Of a stretch of DNA of 47,596 nt, positions 10,456-31,894 are shown in pieces; positions within the stretch are counted from its first letter, which is position 1; each line of letters opens with the position of its first letter. Made by a program: the position numbers and the translations under genes. This DNA comes from Microcaldota archaeon (GTDB lineage: Archaea; Micrarchaeota; Micrarchaeia; Micrarchaeales; CABMGC01), in the NCBI GenBank assembly GCA_027365175.1, contig DAHXNY010000005.1, positions 1 to 47,596 on the forward strand, in the 5' to 3' direction. The notes beneath the pieces are model-generated. The model did no database searches and was not told where the DNA came from. It was given only the letters and a program-made list of their open reading frames with translations.

Positions 10456-12024
10456 TCAATCAGGCTTTGAGACCAGGAAGGTCTTAGGGTCATATTTGGC
10501 ATTGTCGTTGACTATCTGCATCACCTTGTCCCTGTTCTTGTAATAGTTGGCTATCACCGAACCTGACTCATTTACAGAGAGCACATCATTCGCAAGCATC
10601 CAGTTGAGGATCTTTGACTTCTCCCCTATGTCCTCTATAACCTCGTTCTTCGTATATCCGCTATACAGCGATATGGTATCAACGAGCCTTGTCAGCTCCG
10701 ACACCTGCACAAAGGAATCTCCCCTAAGGTTCCATCTGTAGATGACATTCGCCTCTCCGTTCTTCTCTATCTCTCCGAATTCAAAGAGCCTTCTTATCCC
10801 AAGCCTTCTGTGCCTGAAGAGCGCTATTATGCCCCCTATGGCATTAAGCATAATCTTAGGTATCTCTATAGGCGGATTGGTCATTCTTATTATCGCATCC
10901 TCTGCGTTATCTGCGTGAAGCGTTCCGTACACGGAGTGCCCGGTATGCACTGCCTCGAAGAGCGTCTCCGCATCCTTCTTGGTTCTTATCTCTCCTACAA
11001 TGACTATATCGGGACGCTGCCTCAATGCGTTTATCATGAGGTTGTAAAGCACTATCTCTCCCTTTCCCTCAGGGTTTGCCTGCCTTGTAAGCATGGGCAC
11101 CCACTGCACAAAGTCAGGTATGGTGAGCTCCTTTGTCTCTTCGATAGTTATCACTCTCCTGTTTGCAGGCACGAATATGGACATGGCATTAAGGAAGCTT
11201 GTCTTTCCGCTTGCAGTCCCGCCGCTCACTATCAGGCTTATCTCATTCTGAACGCAGAGCCATATGAGGGATGCGATCTCAGGAGATATCTCCTTGCTCT
11301 TTATGAGCAGAGGCATGGTCCAAGGGTTCTTGGAGAATTTTCTTATCGTGATCGTATTTCCCTTCTGCGATATGGGGAATAAGGTAGCGTTGACTCTCGA
11401 ACCATCCGGAAGCTCCGCATCCATGAGCGGGGCTATGTTGTTTATCTGCCTTCCAACCAGTCTTCCTATATGCTCCGAGATGTCGTATATGGTCGCCTCA
11501 TCGAATATCCTGACGTTTGATTTGCACCAGCCGAACTTCTTGTGGAATATCCATATCGGCTCCTTTGCTGTGTTTACGGTAATCTCTTCAAGGTGGTCAT
11601 CGGCTATGAATACCTCAAGGTCTCCCATGCCAAGCATCATGTTCTTTATGTAAGAGATGAGCGCTTCCTTTACGGACTGCTCAGTTCCTGGAAGATACTT
11701 GTTTATTATCAGATTGGCAGCTTCTATGTACTTATCCCTCATCTTTTCCATGTATTCGGTATTTGTGACCTTTGAAGTGTCTATGGGAACAAGCGAGAGG
11801 AGCTCCGGCTTTATCGACATGAGTAGTATTCTTGTGGCATCCCCTATTCCGGGCATGCTTACTTCATATATCGGTACGAACTCTCCCTTGTCTATTATGT
11901 TTATGTTTGCAGTCATTCCCTGCACATTAAGCGTATAAGATTCGTAAATCCCATTTGCATCAGGCTGCGGGCCTACCCGCTTGCTCAAGTCCTCCTGCTC
12001 CTCCTTCTTATCTGCCAACAACAC
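10456..12024 (-). CDS. VirB11/GspE-type secretion ATPase
   Basis: 522 residues. An N-terminal domain (~1-240) precedes a RecA-like ATPase core: Walker A GGTASGKTSF near residue 270, an Asp-box RRVITIEETKEL, Walker B PDIVIVGEIRTKKDAE near 340, and the His-box HTGHSVYGTLHAD near 360. These define the hexameric ATPases of type IV secretion, type IV pili and archaella. The C-terminal ~110 residues are an unusual extension. It starts two bases after the upstream coiled-coil gene, with AGGTG across the junction; GTG 12024 or the TTG codons at 12021/12018 could be the start. Next to the VirB2/VirB4/VirB6-like genes it probably powers assembly or transport by that machine. An ordinary archaeal type IV pilus ATPase is the alternative, but no TadC/PilC-like platform protein is present. 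Confidence 0.88.
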   Translation of the reverse strand: MLLADKKEEQEDLSKRVGPQPDANGIYESYTLNVQGMTANINIIDKGEFVPIYEVSMPGIGDATRILLMSIKPELLSLVPIDTSKVTNTEYMEKMRDKYIEAANLIINKYLPGTEQSVKEALISYIKNMMLGMGDLEVFIADDHLEEITVNTAKEPIWIFHKKFGWCKSNVRIFDEATIYDISEHIGRLVGRQINNIAPLMDAELPDGSRVNATLFPISQKGNTITIRKFSKNPWTMPLLIKSKEISPEIASLIWLCVQNEISLIVSGGTASGKTSFLNAMSIFVPANRRVITIEETKELTIPDFVQWVPMLTRQANPEGKGEIVLYNLMINALRQRPDIVIVGEIRTKKDAETLFEAVHTGHSVYGTLHADNAEDAIIRMTNPPIEIPKIMLNAIGGIIALFRHRRLGIRRLFEFGEIEKNGEANVIYRWNLRGDSFVQVSELTRLVDTISLYSGYTKNEVIEDIGEKSKILNWMLANDVLSVNESGSVIANYYKNRDKVMQIVNDNAKYDPKTFLVSKPD

Positions 12025-12026
12025 AC

Positions 12027-13229
12027 CTACTTGCCAAGCTCCTCAACCTTCTTGGTAAGTTCTTCTGAATGCATGTTCATAGCGGATAGGAGCTCCTTTG
12101 CCTTTCTCGCTCTGGCCTCGAACTTCAGCATTGCCTCATCTCTCTTCGCATCAGTCATCTTTGACGATAATGCCCGTATGCCATCAAGTATGCTGCTCAG
12201 CTCCTTCTCCAGGGCCTTCTGCTCCTCTTTTATGGTGTCCAGGTCTGCCTGCACCTCTCCTACGCTGCTTGCAAGAGTCGCCCCCTTGCCAACCTTGACC
12301 TTTATATCCGATATATTCCTCTTTATGAAGCTGAAATCCGCTTCTGACGACTTCGTTATCGCGTCTATCTCATTCCTGTACCTTGTTATCTCATCGACAA
12401 AGTGCTCTGCCCTTTTCGCAGCGCGCTGCCCGCTCAATCTAGAGTCCTTATAATACTTCGAGCTCTGCTCCTGTACGCTCTGTATCTGCTGCGCCTGCAG
12501 CTTTGCAAGCTCCGAAAGCTCCTCTATCTTCAGCAGTATCTTGTCCGACTGTGCTTTCGAGAGCTTCCTGTATTCCTCTATGCTCTTCTCATTTGCCTTG
12601 TTGAACGCATTCAGTCCCTCCCTGAATATGCTTATCTCATTCCTTATGTCCTGTATCATCGCGTTTGCTCCTGAGCTATCAAGGCTGAATTTATTGACGC
12701 TCTCAGAGTATTTGTTGATATCAGAAAGGCTTGCGTCTATGACTGCCTGAAGCTTCTCCAGCTCAGTCCTCCTCGCATCTATCCTCTTGTATGCCTTCTC
12801 CACCCTTCTCTCTATATCTGAGATGCGCTTTATCGAATCATACATCTGCTTGTTCTTCGTCTTGAAGAGCTCCTCTATTCCCTTCATGGATTTTGAGTAT
12901 TCGTCTATCTGCCTTGTAACCCTGCTGAGCACCGCATCCTGTGCAGATACGTCTGCAACAAGGTCTGCCTTCTTTACCTCGTCAACTCTCTTCTGCGCCT
13001 CTATCACATCGGCGCTCTTGGAAGTGCTGTCTGCAGGCGTCACATACATCTTTCCAAGCTTGTACGTTATCTTGACTATGTTGGCTTTTTCTAGGATCTT
13101 GACAAGATCTGTCATCGTGTCTTCTCCTATTCCCAGGTTTGCTGAGAGAAAGGAAACCTCCGTCTCCCCATTCTTCTTAAGATATGCGACAAGTCGGTCA
13201 ACGCTTGTCTCTATTGATTTATCAGCCAC
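12027..13229 (-). CDS. Winged-helix and coiled-coil protein of secretion cluster
   Basis: 400 residues. The first ~65 residues look like a winged helix (VDRLVAYLKKNGETEVSFLS, then LEKANIVKITYKLGKMYVTP). The rest is almost continuous coiled coil rich in Lys, Glu, Ser and Asp (residues ~75-400), with no membrane segment. It starts with GTG ~30 bp after a TATA-like TTTTATAAA, so it is probably leaderless, and it forms a two-gene operon with the VirB11-like ATPase. Its size and architecture suggest a cytosolic scaffold for the ATPase. I recognise no named family. Confidence 0.75.
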   Translation of the reverse strand: MADKSIETSVDRLVAYLKKNGETEVSFLSANLGIGEDTMTDLVKILEKANIVKITYKLGKMYVTPADSTSKSADVIEAQKRVDEVKKADLVADVSAQDAVLSRVTRQIDEYSKSMKGIEELFKTKNKQMYDSIKRISDIERRVEKAYKRIDARRTELEKLQAVIDASLSDINKYSESVNKFSLDSSGANAMIQDIRNEISIFREGLNAFNKANEKSIEEYRKLSKAQSDKILLKIEELSELAKLQAQQIQSVQEQSSKYYKDSRLSGQRAAKRAEHFVDEITRYRNEIDAITKSSEADFSFIKRNISDIKVKVGKGATLASSVGEVQADLDTIKEEQKALEKELSSILDGIRALSSKMTDAKRDEAMLKFEARARKAKELLSAMNMHSEELTKKVEELGK

Positions 13230-13561: not shown

Positions 13562-14023
13562 ATGAATTGGACTACAATTAGGACAACTTTGGTAAAAGTA
13601 CTGATGATGAACAAGATGCTGCTTCTGGTGGCCATGTTTGCAGGAGTAGTACTCGCATCCGCGCAATTTGGAGGCTTCGGTACGGGAGGAGTAAGCTCAT
13701 TCAACACAGCGCCTGTGCAGCAGACGCTCTGCAACGTAATATCAGCAGTGCAAGAGGTAGTGGGCGTAATAGCAATACTGCTCTTCGTTCTCGGCGGAGT
13801 CATGTATGCAATAGCGCATATGATGCCTAGCGCAGGACAGCTAAGAGGAAACCTGCAGGGATGGTCTATGGGTATGATAGTCGGAGGAATAGTAGGCTTG
13901 ATACTGGTAATACTGGCTCCTGGAATAGTCACCTTCATAATAGGCAATGGACTTTCACAGACAGTTAATGGAGGCACAATAACATCTGCCTGCACAGGTC
14001 TCGGACTATTCGGAGGTTTCTGA
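13562..14023 (+). CDS. VirB2/TrbC-like pilin candidate
   Basis: 153 residues. A signal peptide (LLLVAMFAGVVLASAQ, cleavage near residue 35 after ASA) leads into a short glycine-rich stretch and then two long hydrophobic helices (~60-88 and ~97-122) joined by a short polar loop with MPSAGQLRGNLQGW. This is the size and plan of VirB2/TrbC-type pilins, including the archaeal CedA1 group that polymerises with lipids. One Cys lies before the first helix and one near the C-terminus, which could form a disulfide. It has a strong TATA promoter and a strong terminator of its own, as expected for a subunit needed in many copies. The family assignment rests on architecture and neighbours. Confidence 0.72.
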   Translation: MNWTTIRTTLVKVLMMNKMLLLVAMFAGVVLASAQFGGFGTGGVSSFNTAPVQQTLCNVISAVQEVVGVIAILLFVLGGVMYAIAHMMPSAGQLRGNLQGWSMGMIVGGIVGLILVILAPGIVTFIIGNGLSQTVNGGTITSACTGLGLFGGF

Positions 14024-14045
14024 AAATCTAGATGATATGAAAAGC

Positions 14046-14186: not shown

Positions 14187-14933
14187 GTGCTTGCTGACTC
14201 TTTTGAAACTTATAAGTCAAACATAAGGCTTGTCCTTCTCTTTTCAATACCATTCATAATCGCATTCCTTATTCCTCTAATAGCGGTGCATGATGCATAT
14301 GTGAGCGCTGGAGGAATCTTCCTCAGGACGGCAAACCTCTTCCACAATCCAACTCCACTGGGATTGAGCATAATAGCGATTGCCGAGTTCTTCTCCCTCC
14401 TGTTCATCAGCCTTGCATTTGTGCTGATAAGCCTGATAGTCAAATCAAAGAGAACCCATGTGCGCATAGGGCAGATGGCCTTCAAGGAGATAGAGAAGAA
14501 CATAAGCAAGGTCTTCATAGTGCTGCTGATATATACATTCATACTGCTGCTTGCAAACATAGCTGGATATTATCTGGGATACGAAGCGCTCTTCACAATA
14601 GTAGTCGGGATTGTAGGCATAATACCTATCTTCTATGTCCCGAGTGCGATAGTGGTAGATGGCAAGAGCATATCAAGGGCAGTAAAGGAGAGTGTAAAGT
14701 TGATAGCGCAGGAGCCGCAGTACTTCCTGATATGGATAGTAAGCGCCATAGTGGTCATATTCATAGTGGATTTTGCATCAATACTTGCGTCTATAGCTGT
14801 CTTGGGGCCGCTGACAGGAACGACAGTCTCAGAGTACCTGGTCCTTATCCTAAACTCATTATTCATACTGCCATACTTCATAATCTTCATAGCAGAGGCA
14901 TATATGAAGAAGTTCAAGCTCCTCAAGCACTGA
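14187..14933 (+). CDS. Six-helix integral membrane protein
   Basis: 248 residues with about six membrane helices (near 15-33, 60-85, 108-130, 133-155, 185-210 and 215-240) and a basic C-terminus (YMKKFKLLKH). The central motif PSAIVVDGKSISRAVKESVKL resembles multi-pass proteins related to the membrane domain of glycerophosphodiesterases (DUF4013/DUF7847-like), which often accompany other membrane systems. It starts with GTG; the next upstream in-frame stop is at 14160, and TTTAAATAA at ~14138 is the likely TATA box. It does not share the motifs of the six VirB6-like paralogs. Its role in the cluster is unknown. Confidence 0.7.
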   Translation: MLADSFETYKSNIRLVLLFSIPFIIAFLIPLIAVHDAYVSAGGIFLRTANLFHNPTPLGLSIIAIAEFFSLLFISLAFVLISLIVKSKRTHVRIGQMAFKEIEKNISKVFIVLLIYTFILLLANIAGYYLGYEALFTIVVGIVGIIPIFYVPSAIVVDGKSISRAVKESVKLIAQEPQYFLIWIVSAIVVIFIVDFASILASIAVLGPLTGTTVSEYLVLILNSLFILPYFIIFIAEAYMKKFKLLKH

Positions 14934-14970
14934 ATAATCTATTTATAAATTATGCAGGAGCAACTATATC

Positions 14971-16263
14971 ATGCGACTGCAAGCTCTTGTATTATTAACG
15001 GCATTTGCAATACTAACAGGGCTTCTTCACGCATCGCTCTTCATAACTCCGCCGAGCTACTATACTTTAGTATCAAACTCTCCAAATCCATGCACTCCTG
15101 TAATCACTACCGGAGGTGCAATTCCCAGCACAGAGGGCGGAGGCGCCATACTGACCTCTCTTCCTACAAACTCTTACGTAATCGGATTTGTAATGCTCGC
15201 CCTTGTCCTGTCAATAATGGTAGTTGCGATCGTCTACATGCTGGGCAAGGTCTTCCCAAGCACAGGACTGCTCGGCTGGGTGAACCAGGAGTACTGGGAA
15301 ATCGCAAAATCCGGAATCATAGTAGTAATAATATTCTCACTTCTTCTCTTCATCAGCAATATCGGAGTAGCACTGACAAACACTCCTGTCACTGCTTACA
15401 GTAAAACAGACACGTACCTTAACAACATGAATGGACTGCTCTATTCCTCTGAAACCTATCTTCTTACTGCTGACTCGTATGTTGCAGCAGGATGGTGCAC
15501 TCTAGGCAGCGTAAATTTCGGAGTGGCACTCCTGAACTCTTTAAAAATAGAGTATTATGTTCCAATACCTATACCAATAATACTCACGGGTCTCAAGTTC
15601 GGCACAAAATTCTCAATTCTCTCCACACCTACGCTTCTGGCAGGCAGTGATAATACTATCGGACAGCTTCAGTCAATGATGGTGGATCTGATTTTAGGGC
15701 TATACTATCCCGTATCGATGATAATACTCGTGTTGATAGAGGCACTCCCGATAATAGTGTGGGTAGGCCTTGGTTTCTTCATACCTATCGGGCTTGTCTT
15801 CAGGGCACTGCCGATTTTAAGGGGGATAGGAGGTACGCTTATAGCTACGGGCATCGCAATGGCAATCCTATTGCCTATGGTGCTGGTCGTATTCAATTAT
15901 CCTGTAACTCAGGTCTTCCAAGGCGTTCTGCCCATACAGACTATAACTCCATCTTCTACATGCAATTTCGGAAGCACTGTGATAAGCTATGCATGCAAGG
16001 CATTCATGTTTGTTATAAATGGTGAAAATGCATATATTGGAAATGGTGTGAGAGTGATATACTCGCTTGGGTGGGGCTTTTCTGCATTCGACGGCCTGTA
16101 TACCATACTTAACGCGCTTACTCCGTACTCTGTATTCATGCTGCTCCAGTTAATCTTATTCATCCTAGATGCGATAATAATCAATGCAATAGCAGACAAT
16201 ATAGCAAAGGCGCTCGGAGGAGGAATAAAGTTAAGCCTTGGCGGTAAGTTAAAACTCATATAG
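14971..16263 (+). CDS. VirB6/TrbL-like polytopic membrane protein, paralog 1
   Basis: 430 residues. A signal peptide (MRLQALVLLTAFAILTGLLH) precedes a two-helix hairpin (residues ~71-127) with a polar turn containing WVNQEYWEIAKSG. The second half holds four or more helices around GLVFRALPILRGIGGTLIA (residues ~274-292), the arginine/glycine motif found in all six paralogs of this array. External loops contain Cys residues that could pair (SSTCNFGS, ISYACKAF). The layout fits VirB6/TrbL/CedA, the inner-membrane channel of type IV secretion. GCAGGAG lies nine bases before the ATG, and a TATA-like TATTTATAAA precedes it, so this may be the first gene of the six-gene run. Confidence 0.72.
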   Translation: MRLQALVLLTAFAILTGLLHASLFITPPSYYTLVSNSPNPCTPVITTGGAIPSTEGGGAILTSLPTNSYVIGFVMLALVLSIMVVAIVYMLGKVFPSTGLLGWVNQEYWEIAKSGIIVVIIFSLLLFISNIGVALTNTPVTAYSKTDTYLNNMNGLLYSSETYLLTADSYVAAGWCTLGSVNFGVALLNSLKIEYYVPIPIPIILTGLKFGTKFSILSTPTLLAGSDNTIGQLQSMMVDLILGLYYPVSMIILVLIEALPIIVWVGLGFFIPIGLVFRALPILRGIGGTLIATGIAMAILLPMVLVVFNYPVTQVFQGVLPIQTITPSSTCNFGSTVISYACKAFMFVINGENAYIGNGVRVIYSLGWGFSAFDGLYTILNALTPYSVFMLLQLILFILDAIIINAIADNIAKALGGGIKLSLGGKLKLI

Positions 16264-16270: not shown

Positions 16271-17431
16271 ATGTTTTTCTTGTTTGCAACTAATGCATCA
16301 TACGCCGGCTGCAGCTTCGGCGGAGTAGATGCTAATAACTGGGTGCAGATAAACGCTCTGCTGCTTGTCATAGCAATAGCGCTTGGCGGCGTATTCTATG
16401 CTTTCAGCAACATCCTGCCACCGTCCCAGGGAGAGAAGATGAAGGGCATGGTAAAGGCGGAAATATTCCAAGGAGTAATAGGAATAGTGATAGTGGGCAT
16501 ACTCCTAACATCCGCAGTTGCATGGTGCAACATCGGATCATCTCTAACAAGTTCTGCTGGCCTAGGTGCAAGTAATCCTATGTCATTTTCCGAGTCCTAT
16601 CTGCAGAATCTCCTGTTCACCAAAGGCTTCTCCCTGTTCGGCTCTCTTTATTCAGAATCTGCTCTTTTAATGATTGACGGAATCCTTGTATCTCATATAG
16701 CGACCTTCCTACAGCGCTTAGAAGCAAGCTTCCTGCCCGTTCAATTAACGCTATCACAAGGTATTGCAAACACTCTTGAGTCATACTCTCTTGCTTTCGG
16801 CACAACCTTCTTTACCATATTCGCAATAGTGTCTGGTATAATATTTGTAATATATCTTACGCTGCCCATGGTCTCTTCTCTAGCGCTTACTGTTGTGGTG
16901 CCTACTGCGATAGCCATGCGCATGGTACCATTCTTTGGACCAAAGGTGCGCGAGGTATCCGATGCCTTCATGTCGATAGCAATAGCTGCATACTTTATCT
17001 TTCCTTTGATGATAGTGATGAACAGTCTTCTGATATCCTATCTATATACTTCATGCGGTGCCACAGTATCCACCTGCAACCCTTACTCCAGTTACCTGGG
17101 AAGCTATCCTCTGCAAAACCTGCCGGTGAATTCATTCTTCAATACTCCTGCAACTTCTCTAGGGGGCGGATTTTCCCTGCCTGCAAATTTCTTCGCGGGA
17201 ATAGTAAGCGGCAACGGCGGCATTCTGGGGGCTTTAGAGATGCTGTTTAAGAACATTATACTGTTTCCGCAGGTGCTAGTGTCCTTCTCTCAGGACATAG
17301 CGATATTCACATTCCAGGGGGTATTTCTTATAGGCCTAGACATATTGGTGACTGTGGCATTTGCACAGGCGCTTACTCTAGGACTAAATTCAGTGTCTAC
17401 ATATGTTTCCGGAGGAGGCTTCTGGGGCTGA
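16271..17431 (+). CDS. VirB6/TrbL-like polytopic membrane protein, paralog 2
   Basis: 386 residues, starting 7 bp after paralog 1. The N-terminus is a short signal-like stretch (MFFLFATNASYAGCSF). Residues ~30-80 are the shared hairpin, and here the likeness to the pilin is strongest: ALGGVFYAFSNILPPSQ against the pilin VLGGVMYAIAHMMPSAGQ. The arginine motif is degenerate (AIAMRMVPFFGPKVREVSDA, ~214-233), with the GG of the other paralogs missing. Three Cys lie close together in the last external loop (SCGATVSTC region). The C-terminus is Gly-rich. Operon position and motifs link it to the transport channel. Confidence 0.7.
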   Translation: MFFLFATNASYAGCSFGGVDANNWVQINALLLVIAIALGGVFYAFSNILPPSQGEKMKGMVKAEIFQGVIGIVIVGILLTSAVAWCNIGSSLTSSAGLGASNPMSFSESYLQNLLFTKGFSLFGSLYSESALLMIDGILVSHIATFLQRLEASFLPVQLTLSQGIANTLESYSLAFGTTFFTIFAIVSGIIFVIYLTLPMVSSLALTVVVPTAIAMRMVPFFGPKVREVSDAFMSIAIAAYFIFPLMIVMNSLLISYLYTSCGATVSTCNPYSSYLGSYPLQNLPVNSFFNTPATSLGGGFSLPANFFAGIVSGNGGILGALEMLFKNIILFPQVLVSFSQDIAIFTFQGVFLIGLDILVTVAFAQALTLGLNSVSTYVSGGGFWG

Positions 17432-17437: not shown

Positions 17438-19051
17438 ATGAGACTACGCGCAATACTTTCATTATTCCTCTTGGCTGCAGTTATTCCATACTCTATAGTG
17501 CAGGCTTCAACTACAAACTTCATAACGCCGTCAACCAATCTTAACATATGGCTGCCTGCTGTAGTAGTAGGCCTTGTGCTAAGTTTTGCGCTCATAGGCA
17601 TATACTATATGACAGGATACCTGTTCAACAATAAGGCTATACGGGCCGGAGCAACTGCAGAATTCGGAAAGCTGATAGGCATAGCAATAGTGGTAATGGT
17701 CATAATATGGGTCTTCTACGTATTCGGTTCGGCAATCCAGTTTACCTCTCCAACGAGCCAGACTCAGATGACAAACATCTGCAATCAACTGGCCAATTCA
17801 AATATAAACTTCCTCAGCACGAATAATAAGCTAAACCCTCTGCCTCCCGGAGCAACCATATGCAATGATATCATAGATCCATCCTCAACTACAAATGCCC
17901 TCACAAGGAACATAGACTACGGGCTCGGGTCTGTATATGTCATAGAAGACAATCTTACCAACCAATCTGTAACATCTCTGAACGCAGTGTATATGTTCTC
18001 CTCAATGCTAGCTTTTCTAAGAGGATATGTGGAAAAAGATGCAGTATGCTTCCCTGTAGAGTGCCTGGTACCCGATGTTCCAAGCCTGTTCAGCCTAGAC
18101 ATAACAGCTTCGCCTTTTTCAGGATATCAAATAGCAAATACTGTACCTGGCGTATTGGGAATAGAAGCAAACCTTATATTCTACTTCCTGCTCTTCCAGC
18201 TTGTACTGATAATGCTGATGCTGCTTTTATGGCCTTACCTCCTTGCAGCAGGGCTTATATTCGAGACTAATATGTTCACAAGAAGGATAGGCGGACTGCT
18301 AATAGCAATTGTCATATCAAGCATGCTGATCTATCCTACCATATTCCTATTCGAATACACATCACTCAATAATATAGGAAACCTTCAGCCATACGGCGCA
18401 TCATCTATACCTAACCTTGCACTATGCGGTGCGCCTCTCGGGGCAACCGTTTACGTCACGCCTCAACTTACCGGCAATCCGAATACGGGGGTATTCTGTT
18501 ATACTGAGGCAAAACAGCTGCCTCTTAGCTACATATACAAGGCCACTCTTCCCGACCAGTACAAAGACATGGTGCCAATTATCTATTCTAAATATCCTCC
18601 AAACACAATGGTGCCGGCCTGCCCTACTAAGAATGCCGAAGGCTTATGCTTCTTCCAGAAGAACCTTAACTTCTATGTATTTCCAAATATCGAAGATATA
18701 CTAAACCTATATTTCACATGGCCTGCAGGAGGCAATCTGTTAAGTTTTGAGGCAATATTCATAGTTCCTGGAGTAAGCACACTTACAAGTGTTGTAAACG
18801 CCATAGCTGCATTCACAAGTCTGCTCTCAGGCAATTTCATAGGCTCGTTCCCATCATTTGCATATTACTATGTTGACCCAACACACGTTATAGCAGCGAT
18901 ACTTGCACTTATCAACGTATATGCGATAGAGGCTGTCACAGGATTCATACTGCCGATATTCAACATATTGATATTGATATCATCAATATTGGAAATATCA
19001 AAACTTCTCGGAGGAGAAGGGAACATACTGGGTCTCAGCAGATTCATATAG
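17438..19051 (+). CDS. VirB6/TrbL-like polytopic membrane protein, paralog 3
   Basis: 537 residues, the longest of the six. It has a signal peptide (MRLRAILSLFLLAAVIPYSI), then the hairpin (~36-95, with YYMTGYLFNNKAIRAG in the turn), a ~110-residue external loop with four Cys, and the arginine motif LIFETNMFTRRIGGLLIAI at ~272-290. A second large external domain (~300-440) contains further Cys, Pro and Tyr. It starts 6 bp after paralog 2. The two large outer domains suggest that this paralog makes contacts outside the membrane. Confidence 0.7.
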   Translation: MRLRAILSLFLLAAVIPYSIVQASTTNFITPSTNLNIWLPAVVVGLVLSFALIGIYYMTGYLFNNKAIRAGATAEFGKLIGIAIVVMVIIWVFYVFGSAIQFTSPTSQTQMTNICNQLANSNINFLSTNNKLNPLPPGATICNDIIDPSSTTNALTRNIDYGLGSVYVIEDNLTNQSVTSLNAVYMFSSMLAFLRGYVEKDAVCFPVECLVPDVPSLFSLDITASPFSGYQIANTVPGVLGIEANLIFYFLLFQLVLIMLMLLLWPYLLAAGLIFETNMFTRRIGGLLIAIVISSMLIYPTIFLFEYTSLNNIGNLQPYGASSIPNLALCGAPLGATVYVTPQLTGNPNTGVFCYTEAKQLPLSYIYKATLPDQYKDMVPIIYSKYPPNTMVPACPTKNAEGLCFFQKNLNFYVFPNIEDILNLYFTWPAGGNLLSFEAIFIVPGVSTLTSVVNAIAAFTSLLSGNFIGSFPSFAYYYVDPTHVIAAILALINVYAIEAVTGFILPIFNILILISSILEISKLLGGEGNILGLSRFI

Positions 19052-23351: not shown

Positions 23352-24506
23352 ATGGCTTTTATAAATAAACGACCTATTCCCATTATGTTGTGGCTTCTGG
23401 GGCTCATGCACATTATACTGTCGCTTGGGGACGTAGACGCTCTGATACCAATAATCATAATACTCATACTGATAGCCGCTGCAGGAGGCCTGACAAGGGG
23501 CTTTGACATATTCAGCTTATTCGGTCTCGGCACGCTTGCAGGAATAGGGCTTGGCAGCAAGGCCTCAATGGCATCAAGAAAGACAGGCGCATATGATAAA
23601 AACAGTGGACAGTATAAGGAAGGTTTTATATCCGGGGGGAATAAGTCACTACCGAAAATTATGAAAGACAAAGAGTTATCCGGAACGGAAAAATTCAAGC
23701 GCATGGGATCGGTCAGAGGAGCTAAGTATGGACATACTACGGCCTCACCTAGTTTAGCTGCAGGAGCATATCATAGTTACAGGAGCCTTTCAGGGAAAAA
23801 TAAGGCAAACACCTCTAATCCCAGCCGCAATCTTATACCTGGTCCAAACGTACTGACCAAAGGTACTGCAACAGGCGCAGGCTCGTCTCCGCTTGTGGCC
23901 TCTAAAGCTGCAGCAATAGGCGCTGGTGCAATGACAGTCAAACAGATGAATGATCACATAGCAAACAGGGTAAGGATGGCAGTGTTAAACCCTGAAAAAT
24001 ACGGGCCTAAAAAAAGGACGTCCGAACAGCCTTCCTATCCAATTAAACCTGATTATACTCCAGCTACCAATACCATTCCGTTTTCAAGTGCAGATAATGC
24101 TGTTGGATGGTTACTCTCCGGACGTAGCGGAGCGGCACTAAAAACCTCCAGGATGAGGCAGCTAGCTGCAAACGATCCAGCAGCCTTCAGAAAGGAGTAT
24201 AATAAAATAGTCAGAAGAGAACTATACAGACACATGGTCAATAACAAAATGATAGAAAAAGGATCATCTTTCAGGATGCCTGAAAACGACAGCGAGCGCA
24301 TGAAATTTAGGTATGCAGGCCAGGTATATAAGGAATGGGGGAAAGAATTTAAGCGTTCATACGAAGCTACCCGCAGTAAACCTGCGTCCTTTGAGATCGG
24401 CCTAACACTCAAGCCGAAACATCCGGATCCAGCTACTCATACGTGGGCATACGACAGCGTAACAAAGAAATGGAAATACAAGAAGGAAAGACCGTCAGAA
24501 GAATGA
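23352..24506 (+). CDS. Membrane-anchored basic protein of the secretion cluster
   Basis: 384 residues. Two membrane helices at the N-terminus (~10-24 and ~30-62, with PIIIILILIAAAGGLTRG) are followed by a Gly/Ala segment and ~310 hydrophilic residues rich in Lys, Arg, Ser and Pro, predicted cytosolic by the positive-inside rule. A conserved-looking tail (SERMKFRYAGQVYKEWGKEF) suggests a folded C-terminal part. A TATA-like TATTTAAAG at ~23326 gives a short leader. I recognise no family. Its basic cytosolic part could bind DNA or the acidic coiled-coil proteins of the cluster; this is inference. Confidence 0.7.
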   Translation: MAFINKRPIPIMLWLLGLMHIILSLGDVDALIPIIIILILIAAAGGLTRGFDIFSLFGLGTLAGIGLGSKASMASRKTGAYDKNSGQYKEGFISGGNKSLPKIMKDKELSGTEKFKRMGSVRGAKYGHTTASPSLAAGAYHSYRSLSGKNKANTSNPSRNLIPGPNVLTKGTATGAGSSPLVASKAAAIGAGAMTVKQMNDHIANRVRMAVLNPEKYGPKKRTSEQPSYPIKPDYTPATNTIPFSSADNAVGWLLSGRSGAALKTSRMRQLAANDPAAFRKEYNKIVRRELYRHMVNNKMIEKGSSFRMPENDSERMKFRYAGQVYKEWGKEFKRSYEATRSKPASFEIGLTLKPKHPDPATHTWAYDSVTKKWKYKKERPSEE

Positions 24507-24617: not shown

Positions 24618-25439
24618 TTGAACAAGAACTTTTCTTTCCTTATATTCATAGGCTTCCTCTGCGCAACTTTCATATGTGCGGTTATAATAAGCATATTGCC
24701 TCTGGGATACGCGATCCCGGCAATAATCCTGATGTTCATAGGGCTTCTTCTGGACGTGATAGCGGCGTCTGCCAGATTCTATGCGTACTACTTCGTCCCA
24801 TTCATAAAGCGCAAGAACAATGTGGTCACGCTGAGCAATGAGCCTCCATTCTATGTGACAGCTTCCGGAAATGCGATAATAGTAAGGGCGGAAGAAAACA
24901 CATATGCGAGCGTCTTTGTAAAGATTCCCGTCTATCTCTCTTCCACAGAGATGTCTGACGAGGAGAAGCTAAACTTTGCAAGAGCTTTCTCAAAGATGAT
25001 AACAGTTAACAGCAGATATCCTATGAAACTCGCATCACAGCTATACTATCTAAACAAAGACGAGTATATACGCAGGATAAGTGCAAAGCTGAATGAAGTG
25101 GAGGACAGGTATGACAAGCTGAAGGCCGACAAGACCACTCCTGACAAGCTTCTGAATAGGACAGAAGGAGAGCTGGCAATGTGGCACAATCTCTTCGACG
25201 GCGTGAACAAGTCGCCTTCTCAGAACCAGATGGCATATGCGATGATAAGCGCCCCGGGAGCCAATGAGGAGGAGGCAGTAGCAATAGCAATGCAGCGTGC
25301 AGAAGAGGTTGCGGCAGGGGCAGGTTCAATTTTCGGAGTGACTGCAAGCATAGCTACAGGAGAGGAGATGCTTGCGTTTGTAGAGCCTGAGTATAGCATA
25401 CCTCCTGCAACGATAAGCGAGCTTCTTAAGAAGGGATGA
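24618..25439 (+). CDS. VirB3/VirB4-N-like membrane protein, paralog A
   Basis: 273 residues starting at TTG; no ATG exists between the upstream in-frame stop (24588) and this codon. Two membrane helices (~4-25 and ~30-50) precede a ~210-residue cytosolic domain: a short strand region (FYVTASGNAIIVRAEENTYA), VKIPVYLSSTEMSDEEKLNF, a helix pair with many Lys/Glu, a MAYAMISAPGANEEEAVAIA segment, and ASIATGEEMLAFV near the end. This order resembles the N-terminal non-ATPase half of VirB4/TraC proteins, preceded by VirB3-like helices. It is similar in plan to the next gene, whose start overlaps its stop by four bases (ATGA). It probably anchors the separate VirB4-like motor. Confidence 0.68.
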   Translation: MNKNFSFLIFIGFLCATFICAVIISILPLGYAIPAIILMFIGLLLDVIAASARFYAYYFVPFIKRKNNVVTLSNEPPFYVTASGNAIIVRAEENTYASVFVKIPVYLSSTEMSDEEKLNFARAFSKMITVNSRYPMKLASQLYYLNKDEYIRRISAKLNEVEDRYDKLKADKTTPDKLLNRTEGELAMWHNLFDGVNKSPSQNQMAYAMISAPGANEEEAVAIAMQRAEEVAAGAGSIFGVTASIATGEEMLAFVEPEYSIPPATISELLKKG

Positions 25440-26266
25440 GCATGGACGAAGAGACGATATTCAGAGTTGGCATCACGTTGATATTGGCACTGATGTTCGT
25501 GTCATTCAGCGCAGCTTATGGCCCTCTGTATATACTGGCTCTGGTGTTCTTCATGGCAGCATTTGTGCTAATAATAATCCTAAGCTTTGCAGACTTTGTA
25601 CTATTCCCGCTATTCACAAGGATACTCAAGGTCACGACAGTGCCGGCAAGGGACTATACAATTCCGAAGGAGAATGACGGAATAGTAAAATACGTAAATG
25701 GCCTATATTATGCAACAGGGTACATCACCGCTAATGTCTACAACTATGTCTTCCAGGCAGAACAGATGATTGAAGGGGAGGATACTGAAATGGTAATGGG
25801 GCCTGACAAATGGGAAAAGGCAGTCATGAGCGTGAAATTCCCATTCAAATTCATAGCCATAGGGCAGGCAGTAGACATACAGAAGTACAGGGACGATCTG
25901 GAAGGGAGAAGGGCCTATCTTGAATTTCAGTATTCAAAAAGCGAGAGCGCTCCTAACGTCTCTACATCGGTGCTTGACGACTTAAAAAGAAGAATGCGCG
26001 TCCTTCAGGTGAGGATAGACAGGCTTGGCGCAGGGGAGCGGCCTCTAAGCAGTATGATGTACATAGAGACTACTGCAGTTGGAATAACCTTGAGCGATGC
26101 CATGAGCAAACTTACCCAGCAGGTAGATCAGCTTCAGACAGTATTCAACGTATTCGACCTGAGTCTTGTGAGGGTGGTAGGAAGAGAGATGTACGGCCTT
26201 TACAAGCTGAATTACTACATCCCGACCATGGACGAGATAATATCTTCGTTCCAGTTCCAAAAATGA
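25436..26266 (+). CDS. VirB3/VirB4-N-like membrane protein, paralog B
   Basis: 276 residues. It has two membrane helices (~8-28 and ~30-60), then FPLFTRILKVTTVPARDYTI, a strand-rich part (GIVKYVNGLYYATGYITANV), a helical part with YRDDLEGRRAYLEFQYSKSE, SSMMYIETTAVGITLSDAMS, and a final YKLNYYIPTMDEIISSF. The succession of helices, strand, helix pair and final proline strand matches the preceding protein (IVRAEENTYASVFVKIP, then PEYSIPPATISELL), so the two are diverged paralogs. It is translationally coupled to paralog A through ATGA and lies 41 bp before the motor ATPase. Confidence 0.68.
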   Translation: MSMDEETIFRVGITLILALMFVSFSAAYGPLYILALVFFMAAFVLIIILSFADFVLFPLFTRILKVTTVPARDYTIPKENDGIVKYVNGLYYATGYITANVYNYVFQAEQMIEGEDTEMVMGPDKWEKAVMSVKFPFKFIAIGQAVDIQKYRDDLEGRRAYLEFQYSKSESAPNVSTSVLDDLKRRMRVLQVRIDRLGAGERPLSSMMYIETTAVGITLSDAMSKLTQQVDQLQTVFNVFDLSLVRVVGREMYGLYKLNYYIPTMDEIISSFQFQK

Positions 26267-26307: not shown

Positions 26308-27813
26308 ATGGGATTGATAAGGATACAAAACGTAATGAGCAATGAGCTTGCAAAGCGCGTCTTCCTTAGCAGACCCCCCGAACCTCCTCCCGAGTTCCTT
26401 CTCAATGACCCTACTGACTCGATATTCATAGGGATAACCAGGAGGTTTGCCGTCCCTCTCACATGGACATTTGCCACTCTGACAAACCCTCACATCTCCG
26501 TAGTGGGAATAACTGGAGCTGGAAAGTCATTCTTCGTAAAGACCTTTCTGATAAGGGCGAGTTATGTATGGAATGCAAATGCGATAATAATAGACTGGGC
26601 AGGCGAGTATAAATCATGGGTGTCACAGAGCGGAGGGAGGGTTGTTGCTCTTGGAAAGGGCGACTTTGTAAACATAATGGATCTTGCAGGGATGAAGCCT
26701 CTGGATAGGGCGAAGCAGATAATGAATTCGCTTGACATACTTACTGATATCACCAGCTTCGCGGAGCAGAGAAGACTTACGGCAGAGGCAATAGAGCAGA
26801 CCTATGTTAACGCCGGTTTTCCTCTGACGCAGATTCCAAAGGATGGGAAAGATGCTCCTACTCTGAAGAATGTAACTGCGCTGCTAGAGGAGAAGCTTGG
26901 GGAAGGGAACTATGCTTATCCTGCAGAGCTTGAGAATGCGATATACAGGCTGAGGGAGTTCTCAAGGGAGGGCGAAGACTACTTTGCAAGGAAGAGCACA
27001 GTCGATCTTGACAAACTGATAACATCCGGTCTTGTTGATATTGACCTTTCTGGCCTTCCTGACGAGAGATTCAGGGCGCTCGCAGGACTATTCATACTGC
27101 AGACATTAAAGGAGAAGATGCGCTTCGAAGGATGGAGCGCCAACAAGGGACTCAAGGCGATAATAGTGCTTGACGAGGCATGGAAGATAGCAAGCGATGA
27201 AAGAAGCGACGCCATTACTATAATAAGGGAGGGAAGGAAGTACCAGTTCGGACTGATAGTGGCATCACAGAACCCTACGGATATAAACGAAGCCATATTC
27301 TCAAACGTCGGCACATCCATAATACTAAGGATCAGGTTCGAGAAGTTCCTCGACTATTTGCAAGGTTCACTTGGCTTCACGGCTTTCATGAGGGATGAGA
27401 TAAGCAGATTCGGGGTGGGTCAGGCAGCTATAGACCTCTCATTCCAGACCTCTATAAAATTCCCATCTGTATTCATAGTAGAGCACATAGTGGGTGAAAT
27501 GCCGCTCAATGTCTATGCCATAACTCTAGGCGACATTCTGCAGGAAAGCGAGATGAGCGATACAAACATGCAGAAGGACTACTATCTGAAGAAGATGGAT
27601 ATAACTGCAAAGCTGGTGAGGACAAATGCCAGCATCGATACGATAAACAGCATAATATTCGACATGGACAAAGCGAACCGTGCAGTAGATGTGAAGAACA
27701 TGGTAATAATACTCGCCAAGAACAATATAAACCGCGAAGCCATAATACAGTTCTTAAGGGAGGTAGGCATACCTGATAATATTATAAGCAGAGTGTTCAT
27801 ATATACAAGGTGA
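26308..27813 (+). CDS. VirB4/HerA-type motor ATPase
   Basis: 501 residues. Walker A is GITGAGKSFF (residues ~67-76). Walker B is IIVLDEAWK with D289 and E290 followed by the AW typical of VirB4/TraC ATPases. IVASQNPTD (~320) is the sensor region, and NAIIIDWAGEYKSW (~90-103) is the HerA/FtsK-superfamily motif after Walker A. It lacks membrane helices and the ~300-residue N-terminal half of VirB4; the two preceding genes seem to supply that half. The last ~40 residues (REAIIQFLREVGIPDNIISR) form a helical motif that is echoed in the next gene. It should drive substrate transfer or pilus assembly in the cytosol. HerA DNA-end-resection helicases are the alternative, but no NurA or Mre11/Rad50 gene is nearby. 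Confidence 0.88.
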   Translation: MGLIRIQNVMSNELAKRVFLSRPPEPPPEFLLNDPTDSIFIGITRRFAVPLTWTFATLTNPHISVVGITGAGKSFFVKTFLIRASYVWNANAIIIDWAGEYKSWVSQSGGRVVALGKGDFVNIMDLAGMKPLDRAKQIMNSLDILTDITSFAEQRRLTAEAIEQTYVNAGFPLTQIPKDGKDAPTLKNVTALLEEKLGEGNYAYPAELENAIYRLREFSREGEDYFARKSTVDLDKLITSGLVDIDLSGLPDERFRALAGLFILQTLKEKMRFEGWSANKGLKAIIVLDEAWKIASDERSDAITIIREGRKYQFGLIVASQNPTDINEAIFSNVGTSIILRIRFEKFLDYLQGSLGFTAFMRDEISRFGVGQAAIDLSFQTSIKFPSVFIVEHIVGEMPLNVYAITLGDILQESEMSDTNMQKDYYLKKMDITAKLVRTNASIDTINSIIFDMDKANRAVDVKNMVIILAKNNINREAIIQFLREVGIPDNIISRVFIYTR

Positions 27814-27817
27814 GTGC

Positions 27818-28123
27818 ATGGCAGGAACCTACATGATAAATAAAATAGAGCTCAAGCGCATACTCAACTCCTTCGGGATTAATATAAGGAGCGTGGAGGG
27901 GCTGCTTGGGACCCTTGATAAGATGCACAAGAACGTCAATGCTATAGAGTTCGCAAAGCTGCTCTTCGGGCTGGGCCTGAAGCAGCTGCAGGTCGAGACC
28001 ATACTAAGGAGAATAGGTGTAGACGACCTTGCAATATCTGATATATTTGATAGGATAGACGAGGATAAGATACACCAGTCATTCGGAAGGGTAGTGGAGC
28101 TGAGTGTTGATATGCAAAGGTGA
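27818..28123 (+). CDS. Small helical protein related to the motor ATPase tail
   Basis: 101 residues, all helical, with no membrane segment or Cys. AAGGTGA overlaps the stop codon of the ATPase and sets the ATG at 27818, so the two are translated together. The segment LKQLQVETILRRIGVDDLAISDIFDRI (residues ~55-81) aligns without gaps to the ATPase C-terminal helical motif (pattern I-x2-(F/I)-LR-x-(V/I)-G-(I/V)-x-D-x2-IS-x-(V/I)-F). It may be a detached copy of that tail that packs against the motor or replaces it in the hexamer. Confidence 0.7.
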   Translation: MAGTYMINKIELKRILNSFGINIRSVEGLLGTLDKMHKNVNAIEFAKLLFGLGLKQLQVETILRRIGVDDLAISDIFDRIDEDKIHQSFGRVVELSVDMQR

Positions 28124-28127
28124 CAAT

Positions 28128-28508
28128 ATGCCCAGCAGCTACTGTATAATATGCGGCAAGAAGAAGGATGGGATAATGGTCGCTGATGACCATGTCTTAA
28201 AAACACTGCGGTGGTTCAAGGAGAATATTACAAAGAACGTGCAGAACAACACGCTTGTTGTGTGCAAGACCTGCTATCCGCAGTACAGCAAGCAGCGCAA
28301 GAAGTATATAAGCAGAAGGACCGCATATGTGGCGCTGGGTATCCTCTTCCTTATACTCTCAGTAATAGTCTCTTCAGGCGCGTGGCCGACTGCATTGTCA
28401 ATAGGCATATTCATAGTAGTACTACTATATGCATTATCACTTATCAATTACATGCCAGGCCTGCGGCTAAAGGAAGCAGGCAAAAAGAGCGGAGCAAGGA
28501 AGAAATAA
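28128..28508 (+). CDS. Zinc-ribbon protein with two membrane helices
   Basis: 126 residues from the ATG at 28128. AAAGGTGA overlaps the previous stop and fixes this start over an upstream frame that would overlap the previous gene. CIICGKKKDG and, ~40 residues later, VVCKTCYPQYSKQRKKY form two CxxC knuckles of a zinc ribbon. Two membrane helices follow (~60-80 and ~85-103) and a basic tail (GKKSGARKK). Both ends face the cytosol. It could tether or sense the motor ATPase at the membrane; this is inference from its place in the operon. Confidence 0.72.
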   Translation: MPSSYCIICGKKKDGIMVADDHVLKTLRWFKENITKNVQNNTLVVCKTCYPQYSKQRKKYISRRTAYVALGILFLILSVIVSSGAWPTALSIGIFIVVLLYALSLINYMPGLRLKEAGKKSGARKK

Positions 28509-28564
28509 GGTACCCTTTTTATTCTTTCATTTATCTATAATAAAGTAATAACGGAGGAGTTGTT

Positions 28565-29290
28565 TTGGCTGAAGATACTATCATACTTCCGAAAGTAGAG
28601 GAATTGCAGCTTGACGGGAAGCTCAAGACCTCATTCCCTGAGATTAAAGCAAAGCTCTCAAAGCTTCCTTTCTATGATATAGGCTCGGATGCCAATTCTG
28701 TGACTGCGGCAAAGGTGGAGAGCAGGAACATAGACAAGATGCCCTACCTGTTCCACATAGTCAAGATCGGCCCTAACAGCATAGATGTCAGTTATTCGAT
28801 AATACCTGATACCAGCGAAAGCATGAGAAGAGCCTATGTGGTAAAGAATCTTGCAGGTATTCTATCATTAATAAGCAACGACTACGAAGTAGACGCGCCA
28901 AAGTTCATGCAGTATATCGATTCTACACTTGGAAATCTGATAGACGGGATCTCGCAGAACTACAATCTGCTGTACAACAAATACGATGCACTTGCCTCAG
29001 AATACAGGGAGATAAAGAGGCTGAACAATGAGCTTGAAGCATCAAACAAGAACATCACCGTACAGATAACACAGCTGAGCGAGGAGGACAAGGAGCTTAA
29101 AGAGGAGCTGGATAAGCTGAAGAAATATTCTGACGAGGCCCTAATGGGACTTGTTCAGGAATGGGTGGAAGTGCACGATAATTCGATAGATACTGAGCAG
29201 TTCGCAAAGAACTATACCGTATCAATACCCAGAGTAGAACAGATATTGAACAAGATGGTCATGCTGGGTTACCTTGAAGTAAAGTCATAG
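28565..29290 (+). CDS. Coiled-coil protein with C-terminal winged helix
   Basis: 241 residues starting at TTG with a strong GGAGGAG six bases upstream. The N-terminal ~110 residues look globular (LPFYDIGSDANSVTAAKVES, FHIVKIGPNSIDVSYSIIPD). Residues ~120-190 are a coiled coil (KRLNNELEASNKNI, EEDKELKEELDKLKKY). The last ~50 residues (VEVHDNSIDTEQFAKNYTVS, LNKMVMLGYLEVKS) read as a winged helix. The architecture mirrors, in reverse order, the 12027 protein at the other end of the cluster. It is probably a cytosolic scaffold or adaptor. I recognise no family. Confidence 0.7.
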   Translation: MAEDTIILPKVEELQLDGKLKTSFPEIKAKLSKLPFYDIGSDANSVTAAKVESRNIDKMPYLFHIVKIGPNSIDVSYSIIPDTSESMRRAYVVKNLAGILSLISNDYEVDAPKFMQYIDSTLGNLIDGISQNYNLLYNKYDALASEYREIKRLNNELEASNKNITVQITQLSEEDKELKEELDKLKKYSDEALMGLVQEWVEVHDNSIDTEQFAKNYTVSIPRVEQILNKMVMLGYLEVKS

Positions 29291-29298
29291 GTTATCTG

Positions 29299-29445
29299 AT
29301 GAGATATGATGTTGTCGTGAAGAGGCGCTTCCAGGACATACGCGTATACAAGGTAATAAAACGCATGAATGACAGATCCAACAAGCTGTCAAGGGCTGTA
29401 ATGAAATTCCTGGAGAAGAAGATGAACGAGGAAAAGGGAGTATAA
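29299..29445 (+). CDS. Small basic protein, 48 aa
   Basis: The frame opens with ATG 8 bp after the preceding stop and encodes a highly basic, mostly helical peptide (MRYDVVVKRRFQDIRVYKVI, then KRMNDRSNKLSRAVMKFLEK) ending EEKGV. About a third of its residues are Lys or Arg. It fits snugly between two cluster genes, has matching codon use and leaves no other explanation for this gap, so I take it as real. It could bind nucleic acid or an acidic partner. No family is recognised. Confidence 0.55.
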   Translation: MRYDVVVKRRFQDIRVYKVIKRMNDRSNKLSRAVMKFLEKKMNEEKGV

Positions 29446-29470
29446 CTGTTTATTTTAGTGGTTAGGTTTG

Positions 29471-31894
29471 ATGAAAAGGAGGAAGCTGTCCAAGACAGTG
29501 GTTATAGGGGTAATTGCAGTAGCCGTCATAGCGGTAATTGCGTTTATCCTGATAGACAACGCCATAAGCAGCGCATTAAGCTCATACCATCCTCCAATCC
29601 CTCCGAGTGCTATAAGCAGTTCCTTAAGCATGCAGAATGCGTTTTTCGGCGATTATGCAAATTCAACAGCATTTGCAGCATATGCAAAACTGAATTACAA
29701 TGAAACCAATGCATCATATGTGAACTTTACATTAAGGGTATTCAAGACCGACCCTGTTCCAAAGATATATCTTGTAGACACGGACAACTACTGCGTAAAC
29801 TGCTTCCTTGGGTCAACCATGGAGCAGGAACTCCAGCATTATCTGAACCAGTACGGGCTCATTCTCAACCAGAGCAGTTTCAACTACATACAGCTTAACA
29901 ACCTGTCATCAGTAGCCCCAAATTCGATAATAATAGTGCCTTCAGGGCTTATCCCTTTATCTTTCCTTCCAATACAGAACAGCTCTTTAAGCGGCTACAA
30001 CTCCTGCCCGTTAAACTACAATTATAGCATAATAAATATGCTGAATAACGGAGACACTATATTCTATGTGGGTGACAATTTCTCAAAAACAGTTTCGTGC
30101 GGCCAGCAGATAATTCAGACCCCTCAGAGCATAATAAATCAGCTTTCAGCAATAGGCATCGGCACGAGGCCTGCCAATGCCACTGACATAAGGGTGGCAA
30201 GTGAGCAGAAATATCTAACCTTCAACTCACCAACATTCCTGTTCACAAGCGGATACATTGCGCCGGCATCAACATATGTCAATGTCTTCAATGGCAGCAT
30301 AGTCGCACTCAGCAATTATCCTTCCAAAGGATGGAAAAATGCATCTGTGCTTTCAAGGGACATAGCTGCGCTCATAGACCTGCACTACTGGAATGACGAA
30401 CTGGCGTCAGGGAGCACAAGAATTACTGCAATAACCAACAAGAGCTCATCAGGGCAGATTGCGCTTGTGACAAACACAACGCAGGCAAGCCTGCAAGCTC
30501 TTACAAACATATCACTGTCAAGCACATATGTGCTGGCAAGCGCGTATTTCTATAATTCCGCAGGTCAGCTGAAGGAGAACAACGCACTGTTCAGGGTAAA
30601 CGGACTCGAAAACGGCTATGTCGATACGATAGCAGCCGTACCGCAGACAATAAGCGAGTACATAAGCGCAGGGGCTACGAACATAACAAACAAATTCGAC
30701 TCATTCCATATCTATATATACAATCTAAGTTACGAAGAGCCTGTGCAGTATCTTTTCATAGGCCAGATGAAACCTAATGTAACGTTCATAAAACCGATAT
30801 CATTCTCTCTTCCTGGAGGCTACTACATAGCCTCGCTCATAGACTCGAACAATGATACATATGCGCGTGCGATCTTCAGGATATACAACACAAATATCAC
30901 TACCGTGCAGCCATTCTCATTCAGCAACAGGACCTTTACATTCTCGCTTCATAGCGGAGGATATCCGCTTACTGGAATTCCCTATAGCATATCCCTTAAC
31001 GGGCAGTACGTGCAAAACGGCACTGTAAACAGCAGCATAATAAGGTACTCTCTTCCAGGAGGCTCTGTACTGAGTTATGGGAACGAGACCTTTACCGTAA
31101 AAGTCTTGGGTGCCACAGAGACAATAATAATGCCTTACACAAACACCATACTAAACATACCTCCATACTATATAGAGTTCGCCATAGCTGTAATTGTTAT
31201 ATTGGTACTGAACAAGATACTCGTCCCTCCAAACATAGACAGATACTACATAAACGTGCAGGAATTCAGGCATACGGACAGGGCAAAGGTCAAGGAGCCT
31301 CCAGAGACAATCCTGAAGGTTTTTGACCAGGTCAACTACTATTATCACTGGAGATATATGCCTCTAACGGCCGAAGAGGTAAAGTCAGGAATATCTGGAA
31401 ATGTTAGATATGGCAACATGCCGATAGCCGTGACATTGCAGAATACATATACCGTGCTTAACAGGATGATGAGAAAAGGACTCGTGGTCGAGGCTGCGGA
31501 TTATTATGCACCTAAAGGCTGGGAAGAGGCATCAAAGCATGACATAGAATACCTTGTAATCTTCAGGAAGCTCAGGGACTACAGCGTCGCCAATGCAATG
31601 CTCTTCACCGACATAGACGCGTATGACAATGTAGACATGATGATAACAAATAAAGGCGTCCAGAACTATGTCTATATATACTCCAGGCTGTCAGAAAACC
31701 AGAAGCTGAGCAACATACCGCTGAGCAAGAAACACAAGACCTTCATAGTCTTCTTAACAGATGAGGACAGGCTTGCATTCATAGACAGACTAAATATCTC
31801 ATACGGAGAGGAGAGCGAAATACTGAGGATGAGCATAGAATCCCTGGATGTAAGGCTCATAGACACAAGCGATCTGGGACAGTTAAGGCTCTAG
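29471..31894 (+). CDS. Large bitopic sequon-rich membrane protein
   Basis: 807 residues from the ATG at 29471 (a TTG just upstream is possible). A basic start (MKRRKLSK) and a membrane helix (~9-29) lead into ~530 external residues rich in Asn, Ser, Thr and Tyr with many N-x-S/T sequons, so it is probably heavily glycosylated. Two Cys close together (YCVNCFLG, ~residue 96) and a pair further on (YNSCPLNY, TVSCGQQ) could form disulfides. A second helix (~566-586) is followed by ~220 cytosolic residues with a winged-helix-like start (VLNRMMRKGLVVEAADYYAP) and a charged end. It closes the plus-strand cluster and spans the membrane, so it may link the outer surface or a partner cell to the cytosolic motor. 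Confidence 0.7.
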   Translation: MKRRKLSKTVVIGVIAVAVIAVIAFILIDNAISSALSSYHPPIPPSAISSSLSMQNAFFGDYANSTAFAAYAKLNYNETNASYVNFTLRVFKTDPVPKIYLVDTDNYCVNCFLGSTMEQELQHYLNQYGLILNQSSFNYIQLNNLSSVAPNSIIIVPSGLIPLSFLPIQNSSLSGYNSCPLNYNYSIINMLNNGDTIFYVGDNFSKTVSCGQQIIQTPQSIINQLSAIGIGTRPANATDIRVASEQKYLTFNSPTFLFTSGYIAPASTYVNVFNGSIVALSNYPSKGWKNASVLSRDIAALIDLHYWNDELASGSTRITAITNKSSSGQIALVTNTTQASLQALTNISLSSTYVLASAYFYNSAGQLKENNALFRVNGLENGYVDTIAAVPQTISEYISAGATNITNKFDSFHIYIYNLSYEEPVQYLFIGQMKPNVTFIKPISFSLPGGYYIASLIDSNNDTYARAIFRIYNTNITTVQPFSFSNRTFTFSLHSGGYPLTGIPYSISLNGQYVQNGTVNSSIIRYSLPGGSVLSYGNETFTVKVLGATETIIMPYTNTILNIPPYYIEFAIAVIVILVLNKILVPPNIDRYYINVQEFRHTDRAKVKEPPETILKVFDQVNYYYHWRYMPLTAEEVKSGISGNVRYGNMPIAVTLQNTYTVLNRMMRKGLVVEAADYYAPKGWEEASKHDIEYLVIFRKLRDYSVANAMLFTDIDAYDNVDMMITNKGVQNYVYIYSRLSENQKLSNIPLSKKHKTFIVFLTDEDRLAFIDRLNISYGEESEILRMSIESLDVRLIDTSDLGQLRL

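Follow-up and report, generated by a model that had tools for sequence, protein, structure and literature searches.

The window analyzed here, 47,596 nucleotides in length, is one entire contig (DAHXNY010000005.1) of a 795-kb genome (GCA_027365175.1, 89% complete) that named relatives place in the phylum Micrarchaeota, a group of tiny archaea dependent on hosts. At positions 13562-31894 it encodes what is probably a chromosomal translocation machine of the type IV secretion system (T4SS) kind, related to the archaeal Ced and Ted systems, in which six different channel proteins would assemble together and act at contact with a host; of the possible functions, import of DNA is favoured. Sequence comparisons established the relationships of the pilin and the motor, the six channel paralogs, their fixed number and order, and their presence throughout the phylum. 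The open reading frames agree with the description given in an earlier sequence-only reading of this DNA, which had proposed a T4SS-like machine at 10456-31894. The proposal is upheld by the sequences of pilin and motor, the fold of the adaptors and the co-occurrence of the channels, but not in its borders: the segment 10456-13229 is excluded.

The machine comprises a pilin, the membrane protein M0, the channel set M1-M6, two variable genes, the adaptors B3a and B3b, the motor B4, and the proteins H101, Z134, CC2 and BIG (Table 1). This order is kept in approximately 20 genomes of two families, indicating that the arrangement is not due to chance. The synteny proposed as a check by the sequence-only reading was found for the machine; the ATPase gene at 10456-12024 is in relatives mostly distant from the motor.

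An ordered set of six channel genes

The six polytopic proteins M1-M6 (14971-22433) are homologous in all pairs, with profile-profile probabilities of 95.8-99.5%. Uncut tandem clusters hold exactly six such genes in 32 of 32 cases, as determined by a profile count that includes the window, and the two smaller sets, of three and four genes, both reach contig ends. The sixth channel gene of one locus (L171) was masked by the overlap filter in one profile count and seen in another. In a further 11 clusters labeled by BLAST, M1 through M6 were each found once. Some genomes carry two sets of six, the maximum being two per genome.

Channel genes also occur singly, in a minimal four-gene operon encoding pilin, channel, adaptor and motor that holds one channel gene in 7 of 7 cases (L072, L052, L209, L210, L220, L221 and L223). 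One of these operons is a second locus of the window genome itself (contig G000:C22, L072 4804-7821), encoding a pilin, one channel, one adaptor and a CedB-like motor of 283 residues; the same order was found in six more genomes. CedB was the best NCBIfam match for both minimal-operon motors scanned (n = 2). The operon of one genome (G027, L052) is flanked by genes for a protein that begins like a type IV pilin (3753-4538) and for another HerA-like protein, 748 residues long (10155-12401).

A FastTree phylogeny of 160 channel proteins was used to compare position with descent. The seven labels, positions 1-6 and minimal, require 8 changes on the tree, where 6 is the least possible and shuffled labels need 105 on average. 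Positions 2, 3 and 5, and likewise the minimal labels, each form one side of a branch. The branches are long, and long branches are readily joined by FastTree, which leaves the deep order among positions unsure but not the clustering by position. Clustering by position indicates an early origin of the ordered six-gene set.

The six genes also behave as a unit in a comparison of two related genomes, G001 and G002 (L070 versus L033), in which DNA identity is 67% across M1-M6 and 84-91% in both flanks. At the protein level M0, B3a, B3b and B4 are 97-98% identical and M1-M6 53-77%; DNA identity between the window and G002 across M1-M6 is 83%. Divergence of M1-M6 between conserved flanks indicates that the six travel or diverge together. 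The pattern suggests that the set was replaced or exchanged as one unit, although fast evolution within one lineage could also account for it. Hydropathy and identity showed no clear correlation in M1-M6 of G001, and consequently no claim is made for fast-evolving loops.

On these sequence comparisons the six-fold set is phylum-wide, ordered and old, which was beyond the view of the sequence-only reading, and it alternates with a one-channel form. No description of the system in Micrarchaeota was found in the literature searched, a set without preprints and most subscription journals, and it is this arrangement that appears new, the component types being already known. The counts amount to a strong structural prediction, that channel subunits are six different or one and never, in the clusters counted, another number, and they suggest a route from a one-gene channel to a multi-gene ring.

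Pilin, motor and adaptors

The first gene of the machine encodes a pilin related in sequence to VirB2/TrbC, in agreement with the sequence-only reading. The match to the Pfam TrbC/VirB2 family (E = 4.5e-6) scored 27.2 bits, just below the cut-off of 27.9; the family profile of the pilin recovered TrwL/VirB2 of R388 from the PDB (E = 0.0024), and a VirB2 profile built from eight plasmids matched the pilin family with P = 94%.

Domain matches of the B4 sequence are to AAA_10, the TraG P-loop and HerA, and in NCBIfam B4 scored CedD first (1e-19), followed by CedB (2e-18), TraC (3e-15) and then HerA (4e-14); the CedB/CedD-type matches rank first yet lie far below the cut-off (70.5 of 600 bits). 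A VirB4 C-terminal profile matched with P = 95.9%, and in the PDB B4 matched the solved VirB4-like protein 4ag5, HerA structures being higher in that search. B4 is thereby related, at the level of sequence families, to CedB/CedD/VirB4-type motors, as the earlier assignment of a VirB4/HerA-type motor had anticipated. The matches to HerA domains are what would be expected if the motor belonged to a HerA-NurA DNA repair system and the membrane proteins were unrelated transporters, but this explanation is extremely improbable given the order of the NCBIfam scores and the motor's tight linkage, in expanded and minimal loci alike, with VirB4-N-like adaptors and a pilin of the VirB2 type. The sequence-only reading had also considered that its two ATPases might belong to a type IV pilus and to HerA-NurA; the first is read as a pilus ATPase, whereas the motor scores higher with CedD, CedB and TraC.

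The adaptors B3a and B3b are paralogous (P = 97.8%). No sequence match was obtained with profiles of VirB3 or of the VirB4 N-terminal domain, to which they had previously been likened, and the support comes from structure: with the AlphaFold model of B3b (mean pLDDT 77) as query, Foldseek returned R388 VirB4 entries at ranks 1-5 (probability 0.90-1.00, E 0.008-0.074). The model suggests an adaptor domain like the N-terminal region of VirB4.

Distribution and genomic context

Searches recovered the motor from 39 of 40 relatives and, in a sample of 295 genomes spanning the phylum, from 245 (89 of the 96 good genomes); its identity across the order is 60-96%. The complete chromosome of Candidatus Micrarchaeum harzensis A_DKE (L136) encodes M0, M1-M6, B3a, B3b, B4, H101, Z134, CC2 and BIG in this order, with M0 cut at the edge of the locus. 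Another genome (G036) has kept the set of six, the motor and the adaptors, but at separate sites. Top6B-like and KH-like genes lie downstream of the machine in the window and in the same place in relatives of two families.

This distribution bears on the view that the genes are remains of conjugative elements. Their homology to conjugation parts, the conjugative islands mentioned in the paper on Mia14 (PMC5498576) and the apparent block exchange between G001 and G002 are compatible with such an origin. It is nevertheless very improbable, as synteny with the housekeeping genes for Top6B and KH is fixed, presence is near-universal, conservation is strong, no viral contig among those searched matched the machine, and no match to VirD4 (PF02534) was found in the window genome. 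A mobile element reading is disfavoured by the fixed synteny, the near-universal presence and the viral contig result. The VirD4 result extends to the genome what the sequence-only reading had reported for the window.

Where the set of six lies apart from the motor (L192, L194, L202 and L207), a LeuRS-like gene was seen by eye alongside it in 4 of 4 loci and an FtsZ-like gene in two. A DUF373 gene lies near the six-channel set in the window (9156-10418; Pfam 7e-86) and, by eye, in a family distant from that of the window (L200 2135-3358).

Relationship to known systems

The closest known systems are Ced of the Sulfolobales (CedA, CedA1, CedA2, CedB, CedD and CedE) and Ted of the Thermoproteales (PMC9905601, PMC11868833). 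They share with the machine a VirB2-type pilin, a polytopic channel, a VirB4-type motor and the absence of VirB8 and VirB10, and the minimal operons appear to hold the same types of component (channel and pilin). Gain of paralogs has already been noted in Ced/Ted, namely CedA/CedE and CedB/CedD, but with one or two channel paralogs compared to six in fixed order here; adaptor and motor are separate genes here, and H101, Z134, CC2 and BIG are additional. Ced is simpler than this cluster, as stated in the sequence-only reading. DPANN archaea are not mentioned in the Ced/Ted paper PMC9905601; with the present results Micrarchaeota join the archaea in which T4SS-like machines occur.

The VirB/VirD4 T4SS of R388 (PMC9259494) shares the pilin, the motor and an adaptor fold like VirB4, but has a single VirB6 gene, the product of which forms a pentamer, together with VirB8, VirB9, VirB10, VirB11, VirD4 and a relaxase. 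The T4SS of Patescibacteria (PMC12102498) is likewise chromosomal, widespread in an ultrasmall host-dependent phylum and mostly without a relaxase, but is of the bacterial MPF_FATA lineage, and the part of that report available describes no six-channel set. VirB4-type motors also occur in DPANN archaea as the SPEARE-associated ATPases of nanohaloarchaea (PMC10266531), in which the motor is fused to giant Ig-repeat proteins; in the available part of that source no pilin/channel set is described.

Proposed machine and alternatives

The core of the machine would consist of the VirB2-type pilin, the membrane channel proteins, the VirB4-N-like adaptors and the VirB4/CedB-type motor. Its ancestral form was probably the four-gene operon with one channel gene, which in Micrarchaeota would have multiplied into six position-specific paralogs. 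The six proteins most likely co-assemble, one of each, into a ring fitting the six-fold motor; the ring would be coupled to the hexameric motor via B3a and B3b, and the pilin may be assembled through it. The machine would act when the cell touches its host, presumably importing DNA.

Co-occurrence with pilin, motor and adaptors supports the channel set as part of a T4SS-like machine. The six channel-like proteins named in the sequence-only reading were confirmed as polytopic and homologous; for its VirB6/TrbL assignment there are hints but no direct sequence match. At its N-terminus M2 is similar to the pilin (P = 91%, compared to <1% for membrane proteins used as unrelated controls), just as in Ced the N-terminal part of CedA is similar to the pilin CedA1 (PMC9905601), and the best NCBIfam match among 50 channel proteins was to CedE (E = 2.5e-4, a single member). 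No Pfam family and no PDB sequence of note matched M1-M6. The proteins may be VirB6/CedA-like channels.

Several results weigh against the proposed machine. No sequence match between M1-M6 and VirB6 was found with Pfam, by profile in the PDB or by comparing profiles with nine VirB6 proteins from plasmids, and with the AlphaFold model of M6 R388 VirB6 appeared only at rank 6 in Foldseek (probability 0.72, not significant). The TM-score between B3b and VirB4 is approximately 0.3, and profiles of VirB8 and VirB10 matched nothing in the cluster. Several genomes combine two channel sets with a single close ortholog of the motor, showing that sets and motors are not simply paired one to one. Finally, the R388 VirB6 ring is a pentamer although VirB4 is six-fold (PMC9259494); six genes need not give a hexamer, and the agreement in number between channel genes and motor subunits is no more than suggestive. 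The specific model is given slightly less than an even chance: six different VirB6/CedA-like subunits, each tied to its position, would form a pseudo-symmetric ring on the six-fold motor, and this ring would predate the radiation of Micrarchaeota, alternate in evolution with the single-channel form and serve as the host-contact conduit of the phylum.

As to function, a Ced-like importer at host contact is favoured by the lack of VirD4 in the genome, the failure to find ComEC in 40 relatives and the resemblance of the motors to CedB/CedD. Ca. M. harzensis lives in direct contact with its host, is poor in transporters and lacks complete pathways for DNA, RNA and lipids (PMC8975820), for which reasons import would be useful. 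The dependence of this symbiont on host contact (PMC8975820) is also consistent with export to the host, be it of effector proteins or of other molecules, which would need neither a relaxase nor VirD4 and for which BIG, probably with a large outside domain, might be suited. T4SS-like machines elsewhere export proteins. Export in place of DNA import is considered fairly unlikely here, the motors being most like the DNA-import ATPases CedB and CedD and no effector candidate or coupling protein having been found. The presence of a pilin also allows a contact or attachment organelle, with a pilin filament and the channel set as a conduit for small molecules but no macromolecular substrate; in other DPANN archaea, filaments are seen together with attachment organelles, the composition of which is unknown (PMC11420986), and ARMAN cells have been reported to make pili-like contacts (PMC5498576). 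Such an organelle is judged unlikely, in that so highly conserved a VirB4-type motor would be difficult to account for if it neither moved a substrate nor served to assemble the pilin. The proteins that make up DPANN contact structures are not known (PMC11420986). The gene set named here, which spans the phylum and occurs in a symbiont-host pair kept in culture, is a concrete candidate for the exchange of molecules with hosts, and the favoured reading remains an importer.

Adjacent pilus genes and accessory genes

The ATPase encoded at 10456-12024 had been assigned to the machine as a VirB11/GspE-type component. VirB11 identity was rejected in view of family scores and of the neighbours in relatives: FlaI ranks first in NCBIfam (1e-74), compared to 9e-39 for VirB11, and the gene is paired with CC1 in 8 of 8 relatives inspected and followed in 7 of 8 by two T2SSF-like (TadB/TadC-like) platform genes, the platform assignment being made by eye from printed sequence. 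On these scores and neighbours the protein is taken to be the ATPase of a type IV pilus. The combination of T2SSE ATPase and T2SSF platform taken to mark an archaeal type IV pilus was found for this gene and its relatives only, and not for the machine. The ATPase was matched in 40 of 40 relatives, with close orthologs in nearly all, mostly distant from the motor; it adjoins the machine solely in the genus of the window and a few relatives.

M0 showed no profile similarity to M1-M6. The poorly conserved genes X236 and X384, between M6 and B3a (22454-24506), are possibly cargo or immunity-type genes. BIG gave no convincing family or structure match; its C-terminus is probably cytoplasmic.

Table 1. 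Features of the machine and of the adjacent pilus genes in the window.
Feature	Position	Strand	Evidence or remarks
Type IV pilus assembly ATPase (beside the machine, not a part)	10456..12024	-	FlaI match; platform-gene neighbours elsewhere
CC1, coiled-coil partner of pilus ATPase (not a machine part)	12027..13229	-	Paired with ATPase
VirB2/TrbC-type pilin	13562..14023	+	Pfam TrbC, PDB TrwL and VirB2 profile
M0, polytopic membrane protein, accessory	14187..14933	+	Syntenic in both families; outside M1-M6 family
M1, channel paralog, position 1	14971..16263	+	Profile homology to other M; tree
M2, channel paralog, position 2	16271..17431	+	Profile homology; tree; pilin-like N-terminus
M3, channel paralog, position 3	17438..19051	+	Profile homology to other M; tree
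M4, channel paralog, position 4	19059..20222	+	Profile homology to other M; tree
M5, channel paralog, position 5	20235..21341	+	Profile homology to other M; tree
M6, channel paralog, position 6	21342..22433	+	Profile homology; tree; AlphaFold mean pLDDT 78
X236, variable gene between channel set and adaptors	22454..23164	-	Only in two close relatives, 29-38% identity
X384, variable gene, N-terminal hydrophobic stretch	23352..24506	+	Few relatives, 42-69%
B3a, adaptor, N-terminal hydrophobic stretch and soluble domain	24618..25439	+	Paralog of B3b
B3b, adaptor, like VirB4 N-terminal region	25436..26266	+	AlphaFold model; Foldseek
B4, motor ATPase, VirB4/CedB/CedD-type	26308..27813	+	Domain and family matches; phylum-wide
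H101, small protein	27818..28123	+	Homologous to motor C-terminus, P = 97.6%
Z134, cysteine-motif and membrane protein	28104..28508	+	Synteny phylum-wide
CC2, coiled-coil protein	28565..29290	+	Synteny phylum-wide
BIG, 808 residues, two hydrophobic stretches	29468..31894	+	Synteny phylum-wide

Elsewhere in the window, two adjacent large proteins encoded at 41394-44595 share a similar stretch, as seen by eye, and have no relatives in the compared loci. A probable transposase fragment, also read by eye, lies at the contig edge (9-530).

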